Positions 44,103 through 53,537 of a stretch of 64,000 nucleotides of DNA are shown here, in pieces. The stretch covers positions 3,534,001-3,598,000 of the forward strand of contig NZ_JAEDAO010000001.1 of assembly GCF_016641735.1 (NCBI RefSeq), read 5' to 3'. Each line of letters begins with the position of its first letter. Position 1 is the stretch's first letter. Source of the DNA: Ramlibacter algicola (GTDB lineage Bacteria > Pseudomonadota > Gammaproteobacteria > Burkholderiales > Burkholderiaceae_C). A model generated the notes under the pieces. That model saw only the letters and a list, made by a program, of their open reading frames with translations. It made no database searches and was not told where the DNA came from. A program made the position numbers and the translations under genes.

Positions 44103-46583
44103 CTAGCCCTGCCGCGGGGCATCGCGCTCCATGTCGCGCAGGATGCGGTCGAGCCGCGTCGACAGTTGCTCGGTGGTCAGCTGCTCGCGGAAGCGCTCGA
44201 CCATCAGCGGCAGGCTCATGGGGCTGGGATGCCGCAACTCGGCCAGCACCAGCTCGCGCGCGCCGATGCGCTCGAGCGTCGCGCGCAGGCGCGACAGTTC
44301 CAGTTCCTGGCTGAGCACTTCCTGCTCGGCCTGCGACAGCAGCAGGTTGCCGCTGTCGTACTTGCGAAAGACCTCGTAGAACAGCCCGCTGGACGCCTGC
44401 AACTGGCGCAGGCTCTTGGGCTGGCCGGGATAGCCGCTGAACACGAGGCCGGCGACGCGCGCGATCTCGCGGAAGCGGCGCTGCGCGAGTTCGGTCGAGT
44501 TGAGCGACGCGAGCACGTCGTGCAGCAGGTCCCCGACCGCGAACACGCTGCGGTCGAGCACCGGGCCGAGGTCGAACGGCTCCGCGCTCACCAGTTCGAA
44601 GCCGTAGTCGTTGACGGACAGGCTGAAGGTGTTCGGCCGTTCGCGCGCCAGGCGCCACGCGAGCAGGCTCGCCAGGCCCAGGTGCACGTGGCGGCCCGCG
44701 AACGGGTGAACGTACAGGTGCTGCCCCTCGCGCGAGCGGTAGGTTTCCAGCAGCACCATGCCGGGTGTCGGGATGCGCGACAGCCGCGCCTGCGTCTCCA
44801 GCATCGGCCGCGCGGCGCGCAGTTCGGGATGCGGGTACTCGCCGCGCGATGCCGTCAGCATCATCTCCAGCACCGCATCGCCCAGCTCGGTCGTGAGCGC
44901 CATCTTGCTGCCCTGCCAGGTCGGCACCGTGCCCTTCTTGCCGGTTGCCTTGCGCACGTACGCCGCCATCTCCTGCACGCGGACGAATTCCAGCAGCCGG
45001 CCCGCGAAGTAGAAGTGGTCGCCCTTGCGCAGCCGCGCGATGAAGCCCTCCTCGATCGTGCCCAGCGAGCCGCCGCTCAACCACTTCACCTGCATCGAGG
45101 CGTCGCTGACGATCGTGCCGACGGACAGGCGATGGCGGCGCGCGATGCCGCGGTCCGGCACGTGCCAGCGGCCGTGCTCGTCCTGCGCGATGCGGTGGTA
45201 TTCCGGGTAGGCCGACAGGCTCTCGCCGCCACGTTCGCAGAACACCAGCGCCCAGTCGAATTCGGCCCGCGTGAGCGCGCGGTACGACCAGGCGCTGCGC
45301 ACCTCCTCGTACAGCTCGCCGGCGTCGAAACCGCCCCCCAGTGCGATCGTCACCAGGTGCTGCACCAGCACGTCGAGCGGCTTCGCTGGCGCTTCCCGCC
45401 GTTCGACGCGGCCTTCCAGCGCTGCGACACGTGCTGCGGCTGCCTCGACGATCTCCAGCGTGTTGGTGGGGACCAGCGTGAGCCGGCTGGCCCGCCCCGG
45501 CGCGTGGCCGCTGCGCCCGGCGCGTTGCAGGATGCGGGCGACGCCCTTGGCGGACCCAATCTGCAGCACGCGCTCCACCGGCAGGAAGTCGACACCGAGA
45601 TCCAGCGACGACGTCGCGACCACCGCCTTCAGCGTGCCCTCCTTCAAGCCGAGCTCGACCCACTCGCGCGTGCCGCGGTCCAGCGATCCGTGGTGCAGCG
45701 CGATCTGCCCTGCCCACTCGGGCCGCGCCTCCAGCAGCAGCTGGTACCAGATCTCCGCCTGCGAGCGCACGTTGGTGAACACCAGCGTCGTCGAGGCCTT
45801 CTCGATCTCCTCCACCACCGGCACCTGCATGCCCTTGCCCAGGTGGCCGGCCCAGGTGTACTTGCCGGGATCGGGCGGGATCAGCGTGTCGATCAGCAAC
45901 TGCTTGTCGATGCGGCCGCGCACCAGCGCCGGCGCGGGCTGCGCATCCACGCCACACAGGACCGCCATCGCTTCCTCGAGGTTGCCCAAGGTCGCACTCA
46001 GTCCCCAGGAGACCAGCGCCGGGTTCAGGCGCCGCATCCGCGCCAGCGCCAGCTGCACCTGCACGCCGCGCTTGCTCCCCAGCAGTTCGTGCCATTCGTC
46101 GACCACCACGCCGTCGACGCCGGCCAGTTGCTCCACCGCGGACTCGCGCGTGAGCATGAGGCTGAGCGACTCGGGGGTCGTGACCAGCACGGTGGGCAGG
46201 CGACGGTCTTGCCGTGCACGCTCGGCGCTGTCGGTGTCGCCGGTGCGCTGGCCGATCGTCCAGGTCGGCGCGAGGTCCGCCAGGGGCTCACGCAACGCGC
46301 GCGTCGTGTCGGCGGCCAGCGCGCGCATCGGCGTCAGCCACAGAAGCCGCAGCGGCTCGGCGCCGCGGCCCGGCTGTCGCTGCGCGAGCAGGCGCTGCAG
46401 CAAGCCGAGCCAGACCGCGTAGGTCTTGCCCGAGCCGGTGGTCGCGTGCAGCAGGCCACTGCGGCCGCCGGCGATCGCGGCCCAGACTTCCTGCTGGAAC
46501 TGGAACGGCGCCCAGCCCCGCCCGGCCATCCAGCGCGCGGCGGTTTCCTGCGAGGGCTCGGTGCGGTCCATGCCGGCCGGCAT
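44103..46583 (-). CDS. Ligase-associated DEXH-box helicase, Lhr-like
   Basis: This 826-residue superfamily 2 helicase matches the type usually encoded with an ATP-dependent ligase and a metallo-beta-lactamase exonuclease in a DNA-end repair cluster. Motifs are HATTGSGKTYAVW (I), LTPMRALAAD (Ia), TTPESLSLML, DEWH (II), GLSATLGN (III), SSLDLGVDF and QRAGRSGH (VI). The C-terminal ~400 residues carry the Lhr-core winged-helix and beta-barrel parts. The start at 46583 or 46571 is uncertain. A 275 bp repeat begins 14 nt upstream, and the ligase and exonuclease lie ~8 kb away. Confidence 0.9.
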   Translation of the reverse strand: MPAGMDRTEPSQETAARWMAGRGWAPFQFQQEVWAAIAGGRSGLLHATTGSGKTYAVWLGLLQRLLAQRQPGRGAEPLRLLWLTPMRALAADTTRALREPLADLAPTWTIGQRTGDTDSAERARQDRRLPTVLVTTPESLSLMLTRESAVEQLAGVDGVVVDEWHELLGSKRGVQVQLALARMRRLNPALVSWGLSATLGNLEEAMAVLCGVDAQPAPALVRGRIDKQLLIDTLIPPDPGKYTWAGHLGKGMQVPVVEEIEKASTTLVFTNVRSQAEIWYQLLLEARPEWAGQIALHHGSLDRGTREWVELGLKEGTLKAVVATSSLDLGVDFLPVERVLQIGSAKGVARILQRAGRSGHAPGRASRLTLVPTNTLEIVEAAAARVAALEGRVERREAPAKPLDVLVQHLVTIALGGGFDAGELYEEVRSAWSYRALTRAEFDWALVFCERGGESLSAYPEYHRIAQDEHGRWHVPDRGIARRHRLSVGTIVSDASMQVKWLSGGSLGTIEEGFIARLRKGDHFYFAGRLLEFVRVQEMAAYVRKATGKKGTVPTWQGSKMALTTELGDAVLEMMLTASRGEYPHPELRAARPMLETQARLSRIPTPGMVLLETYRSREGQHLYVHPFAGRHVHLGLASLLAWRLARERPNTFSLSVNDYGFELVSAEPFDLGPVLDRSVFAVGDLLHDVLASLNSTELAQRRFREIARVAGLVFSGYPGQPKSLRQLQASSGLFYEVFRKYDSGNLLLSQAEQEVLSQELELSRLRATLERIGARELVLAELRHPSPMSLPLMVERFREQLTTEQLSTRLDRILRDMERDAPRQG

Positions 46584-46596
46584 TGTCGCCGCCGGG

Positions 46597-46871
46597 CTGG
46601 GAGCCTGCGCGGCAGAAAGACGGGTCCGCGTTGGGCCGAGAAGGGGCCAGAGGCTAGGCGCGGGCGCGGGTCCAGCCTGGCCGGCTGGACCCGTGGCCGC
46701 AACGACGCATCTGGCCCCTTATCGGCCCAACCCTTCGGGCCGTGACCAGAAACGCGTCATGCGTCGTTACAGCCTCCTTCTGTACATCGAGTACAGCGCG
46801 TCGGACCGCGCCTAGCCTGACGCGTTTCTGGTCGCGGCGCGGGCCCGTCTTTCTGCCGCGCAGGCTCCTAG
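46597..46871. mobile_element. 275 bp inverted-repeat element, copy 1 (MITE-like)
   Basis: The ends are inverted repeats of ~30 nt, CTRGGAGCCTGCGCGGCAGA followed by RAGACGGGYCCGCG. Inside lie nested palindromes. A 21 nt arm at 46631-46651 pairs with 46710-46730 with one mismatch. GGTCCAGCC/GGCTGGACC form an inner stem. A 19 nt arm at 46741-46759 pairs with 46818-46836 with one mismatch. CTGTAC/GTACAG lie between. There is no open frame of its own. It fills nearly all of the 309 nt between the helicase and SulP genes. Copy 2 at 51575-51849 is inverted, of identical length, with about 14 differences. Confidence 0.85.
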
Positions 46872-46892
46872 CGTCGCGTAAGCTCGGCGCCC

Positions 46893-48560
46893 ATGGTTTC
46901 ACTTTCGCGCTGGCTGCCGTTCCTGCGCTGGCCCCGTCCCGATGCCGCCCTGCTCCGCGGCGAAGTCATTGCGGCGATGACCGTCGCCGTCGTCATGATC
47001 CCGCAGTCGGTCGCGTACGCGCAGCTGGCCGGCATGCCCCTCGTCACCGGCCTGTACGCCACCTTCCTGCCGATGCTGGCCGCGGTGCTGTTCTCGGCTT
47101 CGACCCGGTTGTCCGTCGGCCCCTCCGCGCTGTCGAGCGTGCTGGTCGGCGCGTCGATGATCGGCATGGCCGAGCCGGGCAGCGCGCAGTGGATCGCGCT
47201 GGCGGTCTGGTTGGCGCTGCTGGCCGGCGCCGCGCAACTGGCGGTCGGCCTCACCCGCTCTGCCTGGACGCTGAACCTCGTGAGCTCGCCGGTGCTGGCG
47301 GGCTTCAGCCAGGCGGCGGCGGTGCTGATCATCGCGTCGCAATTGCCGCACCTGCTCGGGTTGCAAGGACCCTTGTCCAGCCTGCTGCACCAGCCCCGCT
47401 TCGAGATGGAAGGGCTGGCGTACGGTGTCGCGTGCGTGGTGCTGTTCGACCTGGGCAAGCGGTTCTGGCCGCGCGGCCCGACGGTGCTGATCGTGCTCGC
47501 AGCGACGGCGGTGATCTCCTTCCTCACCGGCTACGCGAGCCGCGGCAGCGTCGTCGGCGCGCTGCCGGCCGGCCTGCCCTCGTTCTACTGGCCCGCACTG
47601 CCGGACTGGGACCAGCTGCGCACGCTGGTGCCGCCGGCCCTCGTGATCGCGCTGGTGAGCTCGATGGAGATGGCCGCGAGCGCCAAGATCGAAAGCCAGC
47701 ACGACGGCAAGCGCTGGGACGCCAACCAGGACCTCGTCGGCCAGGGCGTGGGCAAGGTGGTGTCCGCCTTCTCCGGCAGCTTCCCCACCAGCACCTCGTT
47801 CTCGCGTTCCGCCATCACCCTGTACTCGGGCGCCAAGACGGGCTGGGCGACGGTCGCCGCGAGCCTGATCGTGCTGCTGGTGCTGGTGGCGCTGACGCCG
47901 GCGCTGTACCACGTGCCGAGCGCCGCGCTGTCCGCGGTGGTGGTGTCGGCGGTCATGGGGCTGCTCAAGCCGCGCGTGTTCAAGGTGCTGTGGGGCGTCG
48001 ACCGCGTGGAGGCGGTCACGGCGGCCATTACCGCCGTCGTCACTATCCTGTCCGCGCCGCGCATCTACTGGGGCGTGCTTGCGGGCGTGCTGCTCGGGCT
48101 GGCGCACTTCCTGTACCTGCGCCTGCATCCTCGCATCGTCGAAGTGGGCCTGCATCCCGACGGCAGCCTGCGCGACCGGCACCTGTGGAAGCTGGCGCCG
48201 ATCGCGCCGCAGACCTACGCGCTGCGCATGGACGCCGAACTCGATTTCGCTTCGGCCAGCGCGCTGGAGACGGCGGTCGTCGAACACCTGGCCGCCCAGC
48301 CGGACACGAAGCACGTGTGCCTCTTCGCGCAGCCGATCAACCGCGTCGATGCGACGGGCGTCGAGGTGTTCCGCGCGCTGCGCAAGCTGCTGGAGTCGCG
48401 CGGCGTCATGCTGCACCTGATCGGCGTCAAGTTGCCCGTCGAGCGCGTGCTGGAACGCGCTGGCGAACTGCAGGAAGGGCCGCTGCTGCGGCTCTATCGC
48501 ACCGACGCCGAGGCGCTGCTCGCCTTCGGGCGCTTCATGCGCGCGGACGAGCCGGCCTGA
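46893..48560 (+). CDS. SulP-family anion transporter with STAS domain
   Basis: This 555-residue inner-membrane transporter is of the SLC26/SulP type. The membrane domain spans ~20-400 with the family stretch VAVVMIPQSVAYAQLAGMPLVTGLYATFLP and GSFPTSTSFSRSAI. It is followed by a cytoplasmic STAS domain (~440-545; YALRMDAELDFASASALE, INRVDATGVEVFRALRKLL). Substrates of the family include sulfate, bicarbonate and dicarboxylates; which applies here is not visible. The start at 46893 is 21 nt after the repeat element. Its 3' end overlaps the converging gtrA-like gene by 26 nt. Confidence 0.9.
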   Translation: MVSLSRWLPFLRWPRPDAALLRGEVIAAMTVAVVMIPQSVAYAQLAGMPLVTGLYATFLPMLAAVLFSASTRLSVGPSALSSVLVGASMIGMAEPGSAQWIALAVWLALLAGAAQLAVGLTRSAWTLNLVSSPVLAGFSQAAAVLIIASQLPHLLGLQGPLSSLLHQPRFEMEGLAYGVACVVLFDLGKRFWPRGPTVLIVLAATAVISFLTGYASRGSVVGALPAGLPSFYWPALPDWDQLRTLVPPALVIALVSSMEMAASAKIESQHDGKRWDANQDLVGQGVGKVVSAFSGSFPTSTSFSRSAITLYSGAKTGWATVAASLIVLLVLVALTPALYHVPSAALSAVVVSAVMGLLKPRVFKVLWGVDRVEAVTAAITAVVTILSAPRIYWGVLAGVLLGLAHFLYLRLHPRIVEVGLHPDGSLRDRHLWKLAPIAPQTYALRMDAELDFASASALETAVVEHLAAQPDTKHVCLFAQPINRVDATGVEVFRALRKLLESRGVMLHLIGVKLPVERVLERAGELQEGPLLRLYRTDAEALLAFGRFMRADEPA

Positions 48561-48930
48561 AGGCGAAGTGCTTGCTGCCCAGGTAGTTGAACACCAGGGC
48601 GGCGACCGAAGCGATCGCGAACGGCACGATGGGCCGCGCGGCCATCGCCACGGACCCGAGCACCATGGCGGTGTAGATGCCGAAGTTGACGCTCGTGCCC
48701 ACCAGGCTCACGGCGACGTAGCGCACCAGGCTCGCGAGCGCCGATCCCTCGTCGCGGCCGGCGAAGGTGAAGCGGCGATTGAGCCACCACGTGGCGACCA
48801 CCGCCGCGGGGAACGACACGAGGCGGGCCGCGATCGGACCCCACCCGGCCCACACCAGCGCCTGCAGCAGGCCGCCGTCGACGGCGAAGCCGACGGTGCC
48901 CACGAGCGCGAATCGCAGCAGCGGCGTCAT
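48535..48930 (-). CDS. GtrA-family membrane protein
   Basis: This 131-residue protein has four membrane helices. The GtrA signature is LLRFALVGTVGFAVDGGLLQAL at the N-terminus and WWLNRRFTFAGR after helix two; helix four ends YLGSKHFAFR. GtrA proteins are thought to flip or handle polyprenyl-linked sugars. The ATG at 48930 overlaps the upstream stop by one base (TGATG); a GTG at 48933 (GTGA overlap) is an alternative. It is the last gene of GT2/GT-C/GtrA, which together resemble an O-antigen or lipid glycosylation module. Confidence 0.88.
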   Translation of the reverse strand: MTPLLRFALVGTVGFAVDGGLLQALVWAGWGPIAARLVSFPAAVVATWWLNRRFTFAGRDEGSALASLVRYVAVSLVGTSVNFGIYTAMVLGSVAMAARPIVPFAIASVAALVFNYLGSKHFAFRPARPRA

Positions 48931-50393
48931 CACACGAACACCCGCCAGTCGAGCAGGCGAGCCGCGATGCCGATGGCCACGACGCCCGCCACGATCGCAG
49001 CGCTGGTCACGAGGCCCCGGGGACGCGAGCGCATCGCCGCGAGGTGCGGGAAGGCGACGATGGTGGCCACGAGCGCGGCCAGCAGCGACCAGTAGTGGTA
49101 GCGCATGTCGGTGGCCACGCCGATCAGCAGGTACGCCCCCGAGTAGCCCAGGGCCGACACCGCCAGCACGCGCGCGAGTTGCACGGAAGGCACGGCCTGT
49201 TCACGCCGCAGCAGCACCAGCAGGCAGGCGGACCAGGTGAGCCAGGTGACGGGCCACACGAACGGGTTCTTGCGCAGCAGGTCCATGTGCACGTCGCGCT
49301 CGCTCACCACTTCCAGCGGCGGATGCGCGGGATCGCCGGTGCGGTACTCGGGCGTCAGCCGGATGTGCTTGAGCGGCACCGCGAACAGCAGCGCGGAGTT
49401 GAAGTGCTTCAGGCGGTGTTCGGCATACGCGATCGGGTGCGCGGCGATCGTCTTCGCCCATTGCGCCTCGAGGCCTTCGGGCAGCGTCTGCATGTCGGGG
49501 TTCGGGCGATGCACGCGGTCCGCGCAGCGTCCCCAGCTGCTCAGGCTGTCCCACCAGTACGGGCTGTAGCAGGACCGCAGGTCGGCCGCGGCGATGGTCG
49601 CCCGCGGCTCCAGCACCGACGGGTCGTTCGTGTGGACGGCGATCCCCATCAGGTCGTAGAGGAACAGCGATTGCGTCGCATGCTGCGGCGTCGGGTGGAA
49701 CAGCACCTTGTTCAGCACCATGCTCGCGGGAAGCGCGAGCACCGCGACCACCACGGCGGAGACCATGAGGCGGCCGCTGCGCATCCACGAAGCGGGTGCG
49801 AACGCCAGCAGCAGCAGCGGGCCCAAGCCGAAGATCGCGTTGGTGCGGACCATCGTGCCGTAGAACAGCAGCAGCGTGATGGCGATGCGCGCGGGCCAGG
49901 GCACCGGGCGCGCCTGGCTGCGGTAGAAGAACAGGGCTCCGGTCGCAGCCAGCCAGGCCACGGCCATGCCGACGTCCTTGACCACCTGCGCATTGACGTA
50001 GAGAAAGGGCGGAAAGGCGCCGGCCAGCACCATCGCGACCGCGAGCACCGGGTGATCAGCGCGGCGCAGCGATTCGGCCAGCAGGCCGAAGCCGGCCCAG
50101 TACAGCGCCAGGTGCAGCAGCAGCAGCGGCGCCGGACCTTCACCGAAGGGCAGCAGCCAGGACCACAGCCACGCCATGATCGGCGGGTGCCAGTCGCCGT
50201 ACTGGCCGGTCGTCGCCTGGCGCAGCTGCAGCACCGAGTCGTTGTTCATCACGCCCGGGTAGTGCAGCGCCAGGTTCGCCATGAACAGCGCGAAGGCGAG
50301 CGTGGGAATCCACAGGCCGGCCACCGCGGACAGCCTCGGCGCCGCGATGCGCGGGAAGGACCAGTCGAACAGGACGCCGGACTTCGGCTGCAT
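48930..50393 (-). CDS. Polytopic GT-C-like glycosyltransferase (putative)
   Basis: This 487-residue integral membrane protein has about ten to twelve hydrophobic segments. The first periplasmic loop contains NNDSVLQLRQATTGQYGDWHPPIMAWLWS. An acidic residue followed by an aromatic/His-Pro patch is typical of GT-C enzymes that use lipid-linked sugars. A large loop (~residues 240-385) holds YSPYWWDSLSSWGRCADR. The family is not certain, and the sugar and acceptor are unknown. It starts 3 nt after the GT2 gene and overlaps the gtrA-like start, so the three are coupled. Confidence 0.75.
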   Translation of the reverse strand: MQPKSGVLFDWSFPRIAAPRLSAVAGLWIPTLAFALFMANLALHYPGVMNNDSVLQLRQATTGQYGDWHPPIMAWLWSWLLPFGEGPAPLLLLHLALYWAGFGLLAESLRRADHPVLAVAMVLAGAFPPFLYVNAQVVKDVGMAVAWLAATGALFFYRSQARPVPWPARIAITLLLFYGTMVRTNAIFGLGPLLLLAFAPASWMRSGRLMVSAVVVAVLALPASMVLNKVLFHPTPQHATQSLFLYDLMGIAVHTNDPSVLEPRATIAAADLRSCYSPYWWDSLSSWGRCADRVHRPNPDMQTLPEGLEAQWAKTIAAHPIAYAEHRLKHFNSALLFAVPLKHIRLTPEYRTGDPAHPPLEVVSERDVHMDLLRKNPFVWPVTWLTWSACLLVLLRREQAVPSVQLARVLAVSALGYSGAYLLIGVATDMRYHYWSLLAALVATIVAFPHLAAMRSRPRGLVTSAAIVAGVVAIGIAARLLDWRVFV

Positions 50394-50396
50394 GCG

Positions 50397-51455
50397 TCAG
50401 CCCGCCTCGGACATCGCGATCGGCAACCCGGGCAGCGTGCGGTCCGGGTCCATGTCCATCTGCGCGGGCGCGGAGACGACGCGCAGGCGGGTGCCGGCAC
50501 GGCGGCCGACGTTCTCGGGCCAGGCCGGCGCGGGGATGTCGAGGTACGCGAGCCGCTTGAGTTCGCGGCGCGAATGCGTGACGGTGTCCAGGATCAGGCC
50601 GCACATCATCGACAGGAACGCCACCAGCATGATGCCCACCGACAGCACGGCGGTCGGCAGCCGCGGCACGAGGCCCGTGCGCATGAACTCCAGCACGATG
50701 GGCGCGGCGAGCCCCACCGACAGCAGCGACAGCGCGAGGAAGGTGCAGCTGAAGAACGCCAGCGGGCGCTCTTCCTTCACCAGCAGCGCGATCATGCGCA
50801 GGATGCGCAGGCCGTCCCGGATGGTGTTGAGCTTCGACGTGGAGCCCTCGGGACGGTCCTTGTAGCGCGTGGGCACTTCGGCGGTCTTCATGCGCAGTTC
50901 CAGCGCATGCACCGTGAGCTCGGTCTCGATCTCGAAGCCCGACGACGTGGCGGGGAACGACTTGACGAAGCGCCGCGAGAACACGCGGTAGCCCGACAGC
51001 ATGTCGCCGAACTGCTTGCCGAAGATCTGCTGCACGATGCCCGTGAGCAGGCGGTTGCCGAAGCGATGGCCGAAGCGGTACGCCTCCTTGATCTGCGTGA
51101 CGCGCGCGCCGTTGACCATGTCCAGCTGGCCATCGAGCAGCGTGCGCACCAGCGCGGGCGCGGCCGACGCGTCGTACGTGTCGTCGCCGTCGACCAGCAC
51201 GTAGACGTCGGCCTCGACGTCGCTGAACATGCGCCGCATCACGTTCCCCTTGCCGGGGAACGGCTCCTGGCCGACGATCGCGCCGGCCGCGGCCGCCACT
51301 TCGGCGGTGCGGTCGGTCGACGCGTTGTCGTAGACGTAGACGCGGGCACCGGGCAGCGCCCGGCGAAAGTCGCGCACCACCTGCCCGATGGCGACTTCCT
51401 CGTTGTAGCAGGGGATCAGGACCGCGATGTCGACGTGATCCAGCTCGTTGGTCAT
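50397..51455 (-). CDS. Family 2 glycosyltransferase, polyprenyl-phosphate sugar synthase type
   Basis: This 352-residue enzyme has a GT-A domain (residues ~8-230) with VLIPCYNEEVAIGQVV, the DxD-like VYVLVDGDDTYDA and GDMLSGYRVFSRRFVKSFP. Two C-terminal membrane helices follow (PLAFFSCTFLALSLLSVGLAAPIVL; LPTAVLSVGIMLVAFLSMMCGLI). This is the GtrB/DPM layout, so it probably makes a lipid-linked sugar used by the GT-C partner. The ATG at 51455 has GGAG upstream; the frame beyond runs into the repeat. It is first in the operon. Confidence 0.9.
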   Translation of the reverse strand: MTNELDHVDIAVLIPCYNEEVAIGQVVRDFRRALPGARVYVYDNASTDRTAEVAAAAGAIVGQEPFPGKGNVMRRMFSDVEADVYVLVDGDDTYDASAAPALVRTLLDGQLDMVNGARVTQIKEAYRFGHRFGNRLLTGIVQQIFGKQFGDMLSGYRVFSRRFVKSFPATSSGFEIETELTVHALELRMKTAEVPTRYKDRPEGSTSKLNTIRDGLRILRMIALLVKEERPLAFFSCTFLALSLLSVGLAAPIVLEFMRTGLVPRLPTAVLSVGIMLVAFLSMMCGLILDTVTHSRRELKRLAYLDIPAPAWPENVGRRAGTRLRVVSAPAQMDMDPDRTLPGLPIAMSEAG

Positions 51456-51574
51456 GGCTTGCTCCTCGCGCATGGGCCCCGGCGTGGGACTCGAACGGCG
51501 CATGCAGAAGATGCTAGGAGCGCGTGCGGTCGGGCAGGAGACTGGTGGCTCCTTGGAGCCATGGCCCGCTGGTG

Positions 51575-51849
51575 CTGGGAGCCTGCGCGGCAGAGAGACG
51601 GGCCCGCGCCGCGACCAGAAACGCGTCAGGCTAGGCGCGGCCGACGCGCTGTACTCGACGTACAGAAGGAGGTCCGTAACGACGCATGGCGCGTTTCTGG
51701 TCACGGCCCGAAGGGTTGGGCCGATAAGGGGCCATATGCGTCGTTGCAGCCACGGGTCCAGCCACCCAGGCTGGACCCGCGCCCGCGCCTAGCCTCTGGC
51801 CCCTTCTCGGCCCAACGCGAGCCCGTCTCTCTGCCGCGCAGGCTCCTAG
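51575..51849. mobile_element. 275 bp inverted-repeat element, copy 2 (inverted relative to copy 1)
   Basis: This is the reverse-complement relative of 46597-46871, with the same length, terminal inverted repeats and internal palindromes. It ends one nt from the stop codon of the DUF429 gene. Together with the ~119 nt leader of the GT2 gene it accounts for the gene-free stretch 51456-51850. No target-site duplication is obvious. Confidence 0.85.
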
Positions 51850-51850
51850 G

Positions 51851-52672
51851 TCAGGCGCTGACGATCCAGCCTTCGAGCGGGTCCAGCGCTTCAGGCAGGC
51901 CCCAGCGCGGGGGGCCTTCGCGCGCAGCCCAGCCGGCCTGCACCAGGCACAGCACCGCGTCGAGCGCGTCGCCGCTCGCGTCCTCGGCCAGCGCGTCGCG
52001 CTGCGCATGGCTGAGCTTGAGGCGCAGGCCCAGCCGGGACGTGCCGGCCTCGAGCGCCGTGACGATGTCCTTGCGCGCGATCAGCCGCTCGGGCGTGTGC
52101 TTGGCGCGGTCGTCGTTCTTGTAGCTGCGACGGCCGATGAGCTCGCGGGCGAGCAGGCCCGGGTACGCCTCGAGCGCCACGCGTGAGGGATCCCCTGCAT
52201 GCAGGCCCGGAATGTCGACGCCTGCCTCCAGCACCAGCGGCAATGCGGCGTGCAGCATCCACGCCACCGGCGGGTTGACCCACTTCATCGATGGGCTGGA
52301 GCCGGCCAGCCGGTCGAACGCGCGGTGTGCGAACTTCTGCCCCGCCGGTCGCGCGTCGCAGAACGCGGCGAAGCGCGCACGGATCTCGTCGCGCGGCATC
52401 GCGCAGTAGTGGCGGATGCAGGCCAGCCAGTCGGTGGGCCAGCCGAGCTCCTCGACCAGCTCGCGCGGCAGGCCGAACGGGAAGTCGAAGCCACCGATCC
52501 ACGGGCCGGGCGCAGCGAGCCAGTCACCGAACTGCTGCAGCGTCGGCAGCCGCTCGAGGCGATCGAGCACGACACGGTCCTGCACCAGCCGGCCGAAGGC
52601 CAGCACGATCGACTTGCGCTTCGAAGGGGCGCTCGAGAAGTCGCAGCCGACGAGCGCCGTGTCCCCGCTCAC
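51851..52672 (-). CDS. DUF429 family protein
   Basis: This 273-residue protein resembles DUF429, a family of unknown function with an RNase H-like fold. Visible stretches are VGCDFSSAPSKRKSIVLAFG (an early Asp as in RNase H folds), WIGGFDFPFGLPRELVEELGW, and RVALEAYPGLLARELIGRRSYKN. Near the end, ALAEDASGDALDAVLCLVQAGWAAREG holds acidic residues that would complete a metal site. The GTG at 52672 overlaps the thioesterase stop (GTGA), fixing the start. The repeat element begins one nt beyond its stop. Confidence 0.82.
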   Translation of the reverse strand: MSGDTALVGCDFSSAPSKRKSIVLAFGRLVQDRVVLDRLERLPTLQQFGDWLAAPGPWIGGFDFPFGLPRELVEELGWPTDWLACIRHYCAMPRDEIRARFAAFCDARPAGQKFAHRAFDRLAGSSPSMKWVNPPVAWMLHAALPLVLEAGVDIPGLHAGDPSRVALEAYPGLLARELIGRRSYKNDDRAKHTPERLIARKDIVTALEAGTSRLGLRLKLSHAQRDALAEDASGDALDAVLCLVQAGWAAREGPPRWGLPEALDPLEGWIVSA

Positions 52673-53097
52673 GGGGCCGGGGCGCCGAGCGCCGTGCGCA
52701 CCTCGTCGGGGATGCGCACGCCGCGCAATGCGCTGCCCGGGCCGGACTCGTACTGGCACCACACGCGCGACTCGCTGCCGCGCGCGAGCAGGCGCTCCTC
52801 GCCGGGCAGCACCACTTCGTGGCTCACGGTGAACGAGCTGCGGCCCCAGCGCGAGACGTGCGAGCGCACCTCGCATTCGTCGCCGAAGGTGGGCGAGCTG
52901 AGGAACTCGCATTGCGAGTCGACCAGCGGCAGCGTGAATTGCTCGGCCCGCATGCGCGCCGCCGGAAAGCCGGCCTGCGCGACGAGCGCCCAGGTGGCCG
53001 CATCCATCCAGCGGTAATACGTGGGGTAGTAGATGATGCCGGCGGGGTCGCAGTCACCCCATGCCAGCGTGCGGTGCAAGCGGCCCGTGGTCGCCAT
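52669..53097 (-). CDS. Hotdog-fold acyl-CoA thioesterase (4HBT/YbgC type)
   Basis: This 142-residue hotdog-fold protein has the 4-hydroxybenzoyl-CoA thioesterase motif DCDPAGIIYYPTYYRWMD at ~residues 15-32, where the Asp is the likely catalytic residue. FGDECEVRSHVSRWGRSSFTV follows. It probably hydrolyses an acyl- or aroyl-CoA; the substrate is unknown. The ATG at 53097 is 17 nt after the BLUF gene, and its stop overlaps the DUF429 start. Confidence 0.88.
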   Translation of the reverse strand: MATTGRLHRTLAWGDCDPAGIIYYPTYYRWMDAATWALVAQAGFPAARMRAEQFTLPLVDSQCEFLSSPTFGDECEVRSHVSRWGRSSFTVSHEVVLPGEERLLARGSESRVWCQYESGPGSALRGVRIPDEVRTALGAPAP

Positions 53098-53114
53098 GGC
53101 GGAAGCGTGCGGGC

Positions 53115-53537
53115 TCAGGCCCGGCCGCAGATCGACGCGGAGGCCATCAGGTCCTCCAGCAGCGCGAGCGACACCTTGCCGGAGACGGCGTACGGGTCGA
53201 GTTCGGCCTTCTCGGAGTACTTCAGCAGGATCGAGTGGTTGACCTTGCCCAGGTTCACCTGCCCCATCGACCAGCCGCCGAAGCGGCGCTCGAAGATCTC
53301 CTCGTAGTGCAGCAGCGCGACGTCCTTGTGCCGCGCATCCTTCTGGATGTGGCCGAACAGGTCCGACACCTGCATGCGCCCGCCCTCGATGGCCTGCAGG
53401 AACACGCCGCCGCCGTAGCAGAGGATCCCCGTGATGCCGGTCGCCGGGTTGTGCTGCCGCGACTGCGACAGGATCGACTCGACGGCGGCGGGGCTGCTGT
53501 CGACGGCGCGGCTGCAGTAGAGGAGGCGCACCAGCAT
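53115..53537 (-). CDS. BLUF-domain blue-light photoreceptor
   Basis: This 140-residue stand-alone BLUF protein senses blue light through bound FAD. The hallmark residues are all present with spacing equal to PixD: Tyr7 (LLYCS), Asn30 (HNPATGITGIL), Gln48 (FLQAIEG), Trp89 and Met91 (GWSMG). The ~45-residue C-terminal part is helical (AVSGKVSLALLEDLMASASI) and has no output domain, so it likely signals by protein contact. The ATG at 53537 lies 2 nt after the folE stop; the longer frame overlaps folE and is rejected. Partner proteins are unknown. Confidence 0.93.
   Translation of the reverse strand: MLVRLLYCSRAVDSSPAAVESILSQSRQHNPATGITGILCYGGGVFLQAIEGGRMQVSDLFGHIQKDARHKDVALLHYEEIFERRFGGWSMGQVNLGKVNHSILLKYSEKAELDPYAVSGKVSLALLEDLMASASICGRA

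Follow-up and report, generated by a model that had tools for sequence, protein, structure and literature searches.

A 275-bp inverted element pair around a sulP and glycosyltransferase segment of Ramlibacter algicola, probably IS1182-family miniature elements, and their folded two-arm core

Two inverted elements at the sulP locus

The window analyzed here, a 64,000-nucleotide stretch of the Ramlibacter algicola genome (G000; window position equals contig position minus 3534000), contains two copies of a 275-bp element in opposite orientation that bracket a sulP family transporter gene and a glycosyltransferase (GT) operon. A scan of the whole window for repeats of at least 60 bp returned two inverted pairs, both belonging to this one element pair, and no direct repeat families. 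In a global alignment of the 276-base stretches holding the two copies, 15 positions differed, two of them being single-base gaps, and two pairs of the differences are compensatory within the closing stem. The sequence-only reading of this DNA had described two inverted 275-bp elements around sulP and the GT operon with about 14 differences between them; scan and alignment agree that the pair is real, and the count rises by one. No transposase gene is present inside the element in the open reading frame (ORF) list. The elements, their parts and the neighboring genes are listed below, with arm scores given for model R1, which contained neither arm order nor element ends.

46597..46871, plus strand: element copy 1, 275 bp, located between sulP and the divergently oriented helicase gene
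46601..46616, plus strand: first 16-bp terminal repeat of copy 1, GAGCCTGCGCGGCAGA, with CTGG before it
46628..46734, plus strand: arm A of copy 1, comprising a variable stem, the GCTAGGC / AACGACGC internal loop and an inner hairpin (model R1, 91.4 bits)
46735..46841, minus strand: arm B of copy 1, head to head with arm A (model R1, 85.1 bits)
46852..46867, minus strand: second terminal repeat of copy 1, with CTAG after it
51575..51849, minus strand: inverted copy 2 of the element, 275 bp; a single base separates its CTAG end from the DUF429 stop codon
51579..51594, plus strand: first terminal repeat of copy 2, with CTGG before it
51605..51711, plus strand: B-type arm of copy 2 (model R1, 82.1 bits)
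51712..51818, minus strand: A-type arm of copy 2 (model R1, 88.1 bits)
51830..51845, minus strand: second terminal repeat of copy 2, with CTAG after it
44103..46583, minus strand: ligase-associated DEXH helicase gene, left neighbor (TIGR04121, 1082 bits)
46893..48560, plus strand: sulP family transporter gene, within the bracket (PF00916)
48535..48933, minus strand: GtrA-like gene, within the bracket (PF04138)
48930..50393, minus strand: membrane protein gene, within the bracket (no Pfam or NCBIfam match)
50397..51455, minus strand: family 2 glycosyltransferase (GT2) gene, within the bracket (PF00535)
51851..52912, minus strand: DUF429 ORF, right neighbor (PF04250, 28 bits over 51851-52693)

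Pfam matches support the names sulP, GT2 and GtrA that the bracketed genes had been given from the sequence; the label GT-C for the fourth gene has no such backing, and we refer to it only as a membrane protein. Terminal repeats had been taken as the structure of the element, and the ends are indeed there, the 17-mer that holds the terminal repeat having no mismatch at any of the four element ends; the description was incomplete in that the interior adds two long hairpins. When copy 1 was folded as a single strand and compared with shuffled sequences, it gave a z-score of -16.5 with DNA parameters and -17.1 with RNA parameters, equaled by none of 200 shuffles. The predicted fold is Y-shaped, with the ends pairing as an outer stem that leads into the two arms.

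The history of the bracketed segment was followed across the genus using 45500-53200 as the query, which all 60 genus genomes matched. Among the matches listed, the helicase, sulP and DUF429 genes lay on one contig in 31 genomes, with identical order and strand in every one, and the GT operon was patchy across the genus. In four relatives (G024, G082, G014 and G035), sulP and the GT operon adjoin DUF429 in the window's orientation without the element, and across 30 loci compared, the element parts of the queries were matched at the window's own locus only. Because order and strand are constant and the four relatives have an element-free adjacency, neither inversion nor joint mobilization is indicated, although both had been suggested from the sequence. 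An invertible switch, in which homologous recombination between the inverted copies would flip sulP together with the GT operon, could draw on a possible substrate (275-bp inverted copies, 95% identical, 4.7 kb apart), but only one orientation was seen in the 31 collinear genomes, elements also occur singly elsewhere in this genome, and a scan of 46200-52200 found no sigma-70-type promoter to switch, a test of little power at so high a GC content; we regard a switch as very improbable. A composite transposon, in which both copies would have moved sulP and the GT operon as a single unit, is in keeping with inverted ends that flank the segment and with the patchy GT operon, but it is barely credible beside the element-free order in the four relatives. 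The explanation that we consider likely as a whole is that the bracketed segment would be ancestral and the two repeats would be independent insertions of one non-autonomous miniature inverted-repeat transposable element (MITE) of ~275 bp, their flanking positions being a coincidence of two events.

Copy 1 occupies almost the whole of the gap at 46584-46892, and it must therefore either contain the promoters of both the helicase gene and sulP or have displaced them. A terminator scan of 46200-52200 found one terminator-like site, outside the elements and with no excess over shuffles; together with the promoter scan, this does not indicate a simple promoter or terminator role for the elements. 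Upstream of the GT2 gene (51500-51575), the string ATGCTAGG is kept in five relatives and is followed in the window by the inverted repeat GGCTCC-GGAGCC; this region is perhaps the promoter or operator of the GT operon.

Element copies, ends and a candidate IS1182-family helper

The sequence-only reading had proposed counting copies and searching for an autonomous relative, and had held that an element confined to these two sites would argue against mobility. BLAST found seven near-full copies plus partial ones in this genome (4.2 Mb, three contigs), and the arm covariance model found 17 arms, which by position form eight two-arm units and one single-arm unit; of these, seven of the two-arm units and the single-arm unit carry window-type ends. 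With nine arm-bearing units here and element BLAST matches in 15 of 36 congeners (and in none of 24 genomes of other families), the element is clearly not restricted to the two sites. Several of the matched congener contigs begin inside the element, which thus coincides with assembly breaks. In a public genome collection, the terminal-repeat pattern occurred in 53 stretches, the titles of which name only Ramlibacter, Caenimonas sedimenti, or Comamonadaceae/Burkholderiales metagenome-assembled genomes, and in viral contigs it did not occur. BLAST searches of plasmids returned no match with the element, only two short pieces with the element of another genus, and none with a 35-nt end.

Smaller forms were also seen. 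A micro-element remnant in this genome (L346; contig 1, ~958170-958213) consists of two terminal repeats nearly back to back, and two mini-elements (L168, 1981-2464; L170, 1523-2028) have identical 16-bp ends around a different interior with CTCCCTCTCCCTCTGGGAGAGGG hairpins, L170 having one mismatch in the 16-bp repeat at one end.

The search for an autonomous relative led to a congener in which a terminal-repeat pair 1.5 kb apart (L167, 1694-3237) encloses an intact 432-residue transposase whose score with the NCBIfam IS1182 model, 384 bits, exceeds the cut-off of 270. The ends of this element read CTAG-GAGCCTGCGCGGCAGA and CTAG-GAGTCTGCGCGGCAGA, with CTAG plus GAGYCTGCGCGGCAGA at both; CTAG plus GAGYCTGSGCGGCAGA is common to these ends and those of the window element, and all 16 letters of the window element's 16-bp ends equal those of the congener's element. 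Relatives of the L167 transposase were scarce: at E 1e-40 the 60 genus genomes gave matches in G019, G002, G003 and G066. The related elements in the last three are broken or truncated: both ends are retained in G066, the ends in G003 have one and two mismatches, and the one end seen in G002 has one mismatch. An annotated IS1182 transposase encoded on the Polaromonas sp. H6N plasmid pH6NP1 shares 65.6% identity with that of the congener, and its element, flanked by CTA-GAGTCTGGGCGGCAGA and CTAG-GAGTCTGGGCGCCAGA, has a single mismatch, in one of its two repeats; the plasmid matches ranking after it are annotated as ISKpn6. The IS1182 family model matched 18 of the 60 genus genomes and did not match this genome at E 1e-20, and a search of viral contigs for relatives of the transposase confirmed none.

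The same tetranucleotide recurs where the elements sit. CTAG stands exactly at 16 of 34 ends of 17 placed copies (two copies being misplaced by the search and an eighteenth left unplaced), compared with a frequency of 0.0012 per position in the same DNA. For ISPse1, a member of the IS1182 family, an excerpt of PMC3281130 gives 16/16 repeats and a 4-bp duplication, and some members target palindromes, as cited in a passage of PMC5678879.

These results agree with the earlier suggestion of a MITE-like element that depends on a helper in trans: the element is probably a MITE of the IS1182 family. On this account, an IS1182-family transposase of the DDE type, now not found in this genome, would recognize the 16-bp ends and mobilize the element in trans, and insertion would occur at CTAG sites with a 4-bp CTAG duplication. 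Several observations weigh against this account. CTAG is present on both sides in only four of the 17 placed copies, and no clean empty site was obtained, the relatives being ~75-85% alike and their intergenic DNA not alignable base by base; the duplication is for this reason inferred. The intact insertion sequence (IS) shares only the 16-bp ends with the element, the subterminal sequence being different, and of the 12 genus IS1182 loci with a result, 11 have either different ends or no conspicuous ones. For the end group TAGTACTCTTTCAAG, the matches listed for six genomes (four matched, many at contig ends) included no pair at the distance expected of an autonomous element.

The folded two-arm core

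The interior of the element consists of two head-to-head arms of ~106 nt. In each arm the stem varies in sequence and encloses an internal loop, GCUAGGC / AACGACGC, that hardly varies; the conserved boxes are common to both arms of one element, in opposite orientation. A strict pattern built on these boxes finds the arrangement in other genera, with outer stems and inner hairpins that pair despite their different sequences. That pattern matched 24 of 299 family genomes and its backward control 26 by our count, a similar number, so that the strict pattern alone is no proof and both fold and model are needed to separate the real ones.

Searches with model R1 recovered arms in 171 of 250 genomes and 100 of 126 genera of the family (E 1e-6), in 75 of 300 genomes and 50 of 140 genera of the order (E 1e-10), and in 43 of 276 genomes and 37 of 216 genera of the class (E 1e-10). 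Loci are the best-scoring matches, with at most 13-15 candidates scored per genome and rough E-values; copy numbers are therefore lower bounds, and conservation is biased upward. The 150 arms aligned (the nine weakest of 159 matches were left out, and some one-arm loci may have a weak second arm) represent 94 loci, 56 with two arms and 38 with one. In all 56 two-arm loci, a plus arm is followed by a minus arm at most 3 nt away or overlapping it. Neither the window stretch nor 35 loci gave any Rfam 15 match above the gathering cut-off (best 38 bits against a cut-off of 105).

A set of 58 two-arm units, counted without one-arm loci and with each locus represented once, was examined for ends. Terminal inverted repeats were found in all 58 (local score at least 18; shuffled flanks reached at most 19, on much longer windows), and the median length was 272 bp (265-319). 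Crude clustering gave up to 19 end groups, an upper estimate because a few alignments overran the true end and the starts of several groups are alike (GGGCCTGT). This genome itself holds a two-arm unit with other ends, TTAGGGCCTGCGCGCC (L345; contig 1, 4142294-4142565), and the variety of ends among units indicates that one core is carried with different ends. The same core, at similar length and between different ends, suggests that several transposase systems carried it, a helper having been found only for the window end type. Two ~164-bp one-arm units (L289 and L298) also lie between terminal repeats (TTAGTGTCCTGAGTTAGAAG and CTAGTACTCTTTCAAG). In the flanks of the 58 units, our own ORF caller placed 54 genes with the 3' end towards the element (within 15 nt for 44 of them) and 61 doubtful gene starts, a tally that we do not use as evidence.

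Pairing in the arms is maintained as their sequence changes. Among 32 arms from many genera, two-sided change was seen at 30 of 34 consensus pairs, 90.1% of cells pair (57.4% after shuffling and 32-40% when slid), and the covariation score was 0.814, compared with 0.220 for shuffled alignments. Within the genus, 17 copies (the 18 full copies minus L031) were compared over 106 pairs: 98.5% of cells hold, against a shuffled mean of 90.1%, and two-sided changes number 157, whereas 300 shuffles average 47.5 and never exceed 64. In the loop, positions A30, G31, C33, A79 and C81 were identical in 150 of 150 model-aligned arms, and columns 29 and 83 co-vary (T with A in 98 of 150, A with C in 42 of 150), in part through shared descent. 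Judging from these alignments, the interior is a conserved folded core and not decayed IS sequence, with a stem that keeps pairing while its sequence changes.

Two points count against reading the pairing as selected. The number of pairs with two-sided change in the 32 arms, 30, is close to the shuffled value of 27.4 and was reached by six of 500 shuffles; and template-switch correction can keep palindromes paired without selection. The core might accordingly be under no selection, the elements being ordinary MITEs whose palindromes such correction keeps perfect, a possibility with which the free but coordinated variation of the outer stem pairs would agree, as would the similar number of outer-stem mismatches for both strand senses (60 wobble and 46 A-C). 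Correction would, however, erase the loop, whereas the five invariant positions are kept in all 150 arms, and the loop recurs with different ends and without terminal repeats. We consider an unselected core unlikely.

The arms without terminal repeats (plain arms) were analyzed at 13 one-arm loci, omitting L219 and L220, which resemble L218, and L243, which has the place of L230. Terminal repeats at these loci were not clearly above shuffles, three (L212, L217 and L281) scoring 1-2 over the best shuffle. In eight of the 13, by our own ORF caller, the 3' end of the arm touches the stop codon of a gene reading towards it, overlaps it by at most 5 nt, or lies 1 nt away. Neighbors identified over the curated NCBIfam cut-off are GroEL, AtpD with AtpC, ribosomal protein S21, and TrpF with TrpB; PotC, PotF and lipoamide dehydrogenase fall below it, and the neighbor of the S21 gene had no NCBIfam match. 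Plain arms stand within operons, in the atpD-atpC, trpF-trpB and potC-like/potF-like gaps, and another is behind groEL. At four loci from two genera (L217, L218, L219 and L220), a plain arm lies at the atpD stop codon, and in L217 atpC flanks the arm on the far side. At L228 and L230, from two genomes of one genus, arms in the same gap by the S21 gene have opposite orientation and different stem sequences.

These positions bear on whether the arms are chiefly an RNA element of the mRNA (a 3'-end stabilizer, processing site or attenuator, like REP, ERIC or NEMIS hairpins) that transposons amplified. Plain arms between co-directional operon genes, by the S21 and lipoamide dehydrogenase genes and behind groEL would suit such a role, as would the box strand, on which wobble pairs outnumber A-C mismatches (222 versus 69 among 5100 cells). 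The orientations fit it poorly: 10 of the 13 plain arms lie between co-directional genes by the same ORF caller, and seven of these are antisense and three sense, a finding that also tells against the host-factor model set out below. Since arms occur in either orientation to transcription, a simple mRNA role is disfavored. The wobble excess, moreover, was counted in an alignment fitted to an RNA model, and five loop-proximal pairs account for 116 of the 222 wobble cells, the outer stem being nearly even. We view the mRNA element as somewhat doubtful.

The head-to-head doublets and the single units behind genes also resemble REPIN doublets and REP (repetitive extragenic palindromic) singlets as described in part of PMC3116915, and the elements might be REPIN-like, with a RAYT/HUH transposase moving them in single-stranded DNA form and the DDE-type ends acquired later. 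A REP unit, according to a passage of PMC3733652, is a palindrome of 20-40 bp with a GTAG or CGTC tag at its foot; the ~106-nt arms lie outside this definition in length, their boxes are inside the stem with no such foot tag, and every one of the 58 two-arm units has terminal inverted repeats. This origin is, in our judgment, quite improbable.

We instead favor a role for the folded strand itself. One arm may fold in single-stranded form, either as RNA or as DNA opened by replication, and have its loop nucleotides bound by a putative host factor, which we rate as about an even call. The wobble pattern can be read as recognition of the folded strand around the loop, the stem needing only to pair. 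With the arms head to head, either strand would carry one of them in the proper sense, and insertions beside genes might for that reason be tolerated. Taken together, and tentatively, at slightly less than even confidence, the elements may belong to a class-wide superfamily of ~270 bp defined by the two-arm core and its invariant loop rather than by the ends, in which ends would have been swapped, arms domesticated in operons, and the strand recognized by a host factor.

Comparison with known systems

The element itself is of a known kind (IS1182-family MITE); for the shared core, no earlier description was found in a literature search confined to open-licence PMC papers. Like the ISKpn6-like subgroup of the IS1182 family, the element has the 16-bp ends and CTAG, exactly as in the congener, whose transposase is 65.6% identical to proteins annotated as ISKpn6, and nearly so in the Polaromonas plasmid; unlike that family, it is without a transposase gene, and its interior is unrelated to the IS. 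The Burkholderiales-1 candidate motif (PMC2864571) is likewise a possible structured element from the same order; it appears there as a table row without an Rfam number, and it may be an earlier report of part of the core.

With REP sequences and REPINs, as parts of PMC3116915 and PMC3733652 describe them, the elements share an extragenic position behind genes, inverted doublets and a folded single strand. Their units are several times longer, and have DDE-type terminal repeats and an internal conserved loop.

A large repeat family outside Rfam 15 can now be annotated. If the core was indeed retained while the ends were exchanged, the passenger rather than the transposase would be the unit under selection, and an unrecognized host factor for the structured strand would be expected in Burkholderiales and other members of the class. 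MITEs are usually viewed as decayed derivatives of a single IS, and Correia/NEMIS and ERIC are MITEs. To our knowledge, QMITE1/QMITE2, Correia/NEMIS and ERIC each have one end type. The QMITE1 and QMITE2 elements of Coxiella, in the portions of PMC10969869 and PMC5896051 that treat them, resemble the present elements in being short and gene-free, with terminal repeats, a strong fold and many intergenic copies; the present elements differ from all of these MITE families in that several end groups, across a class, share a single folded core whose loop is nearly invariant.

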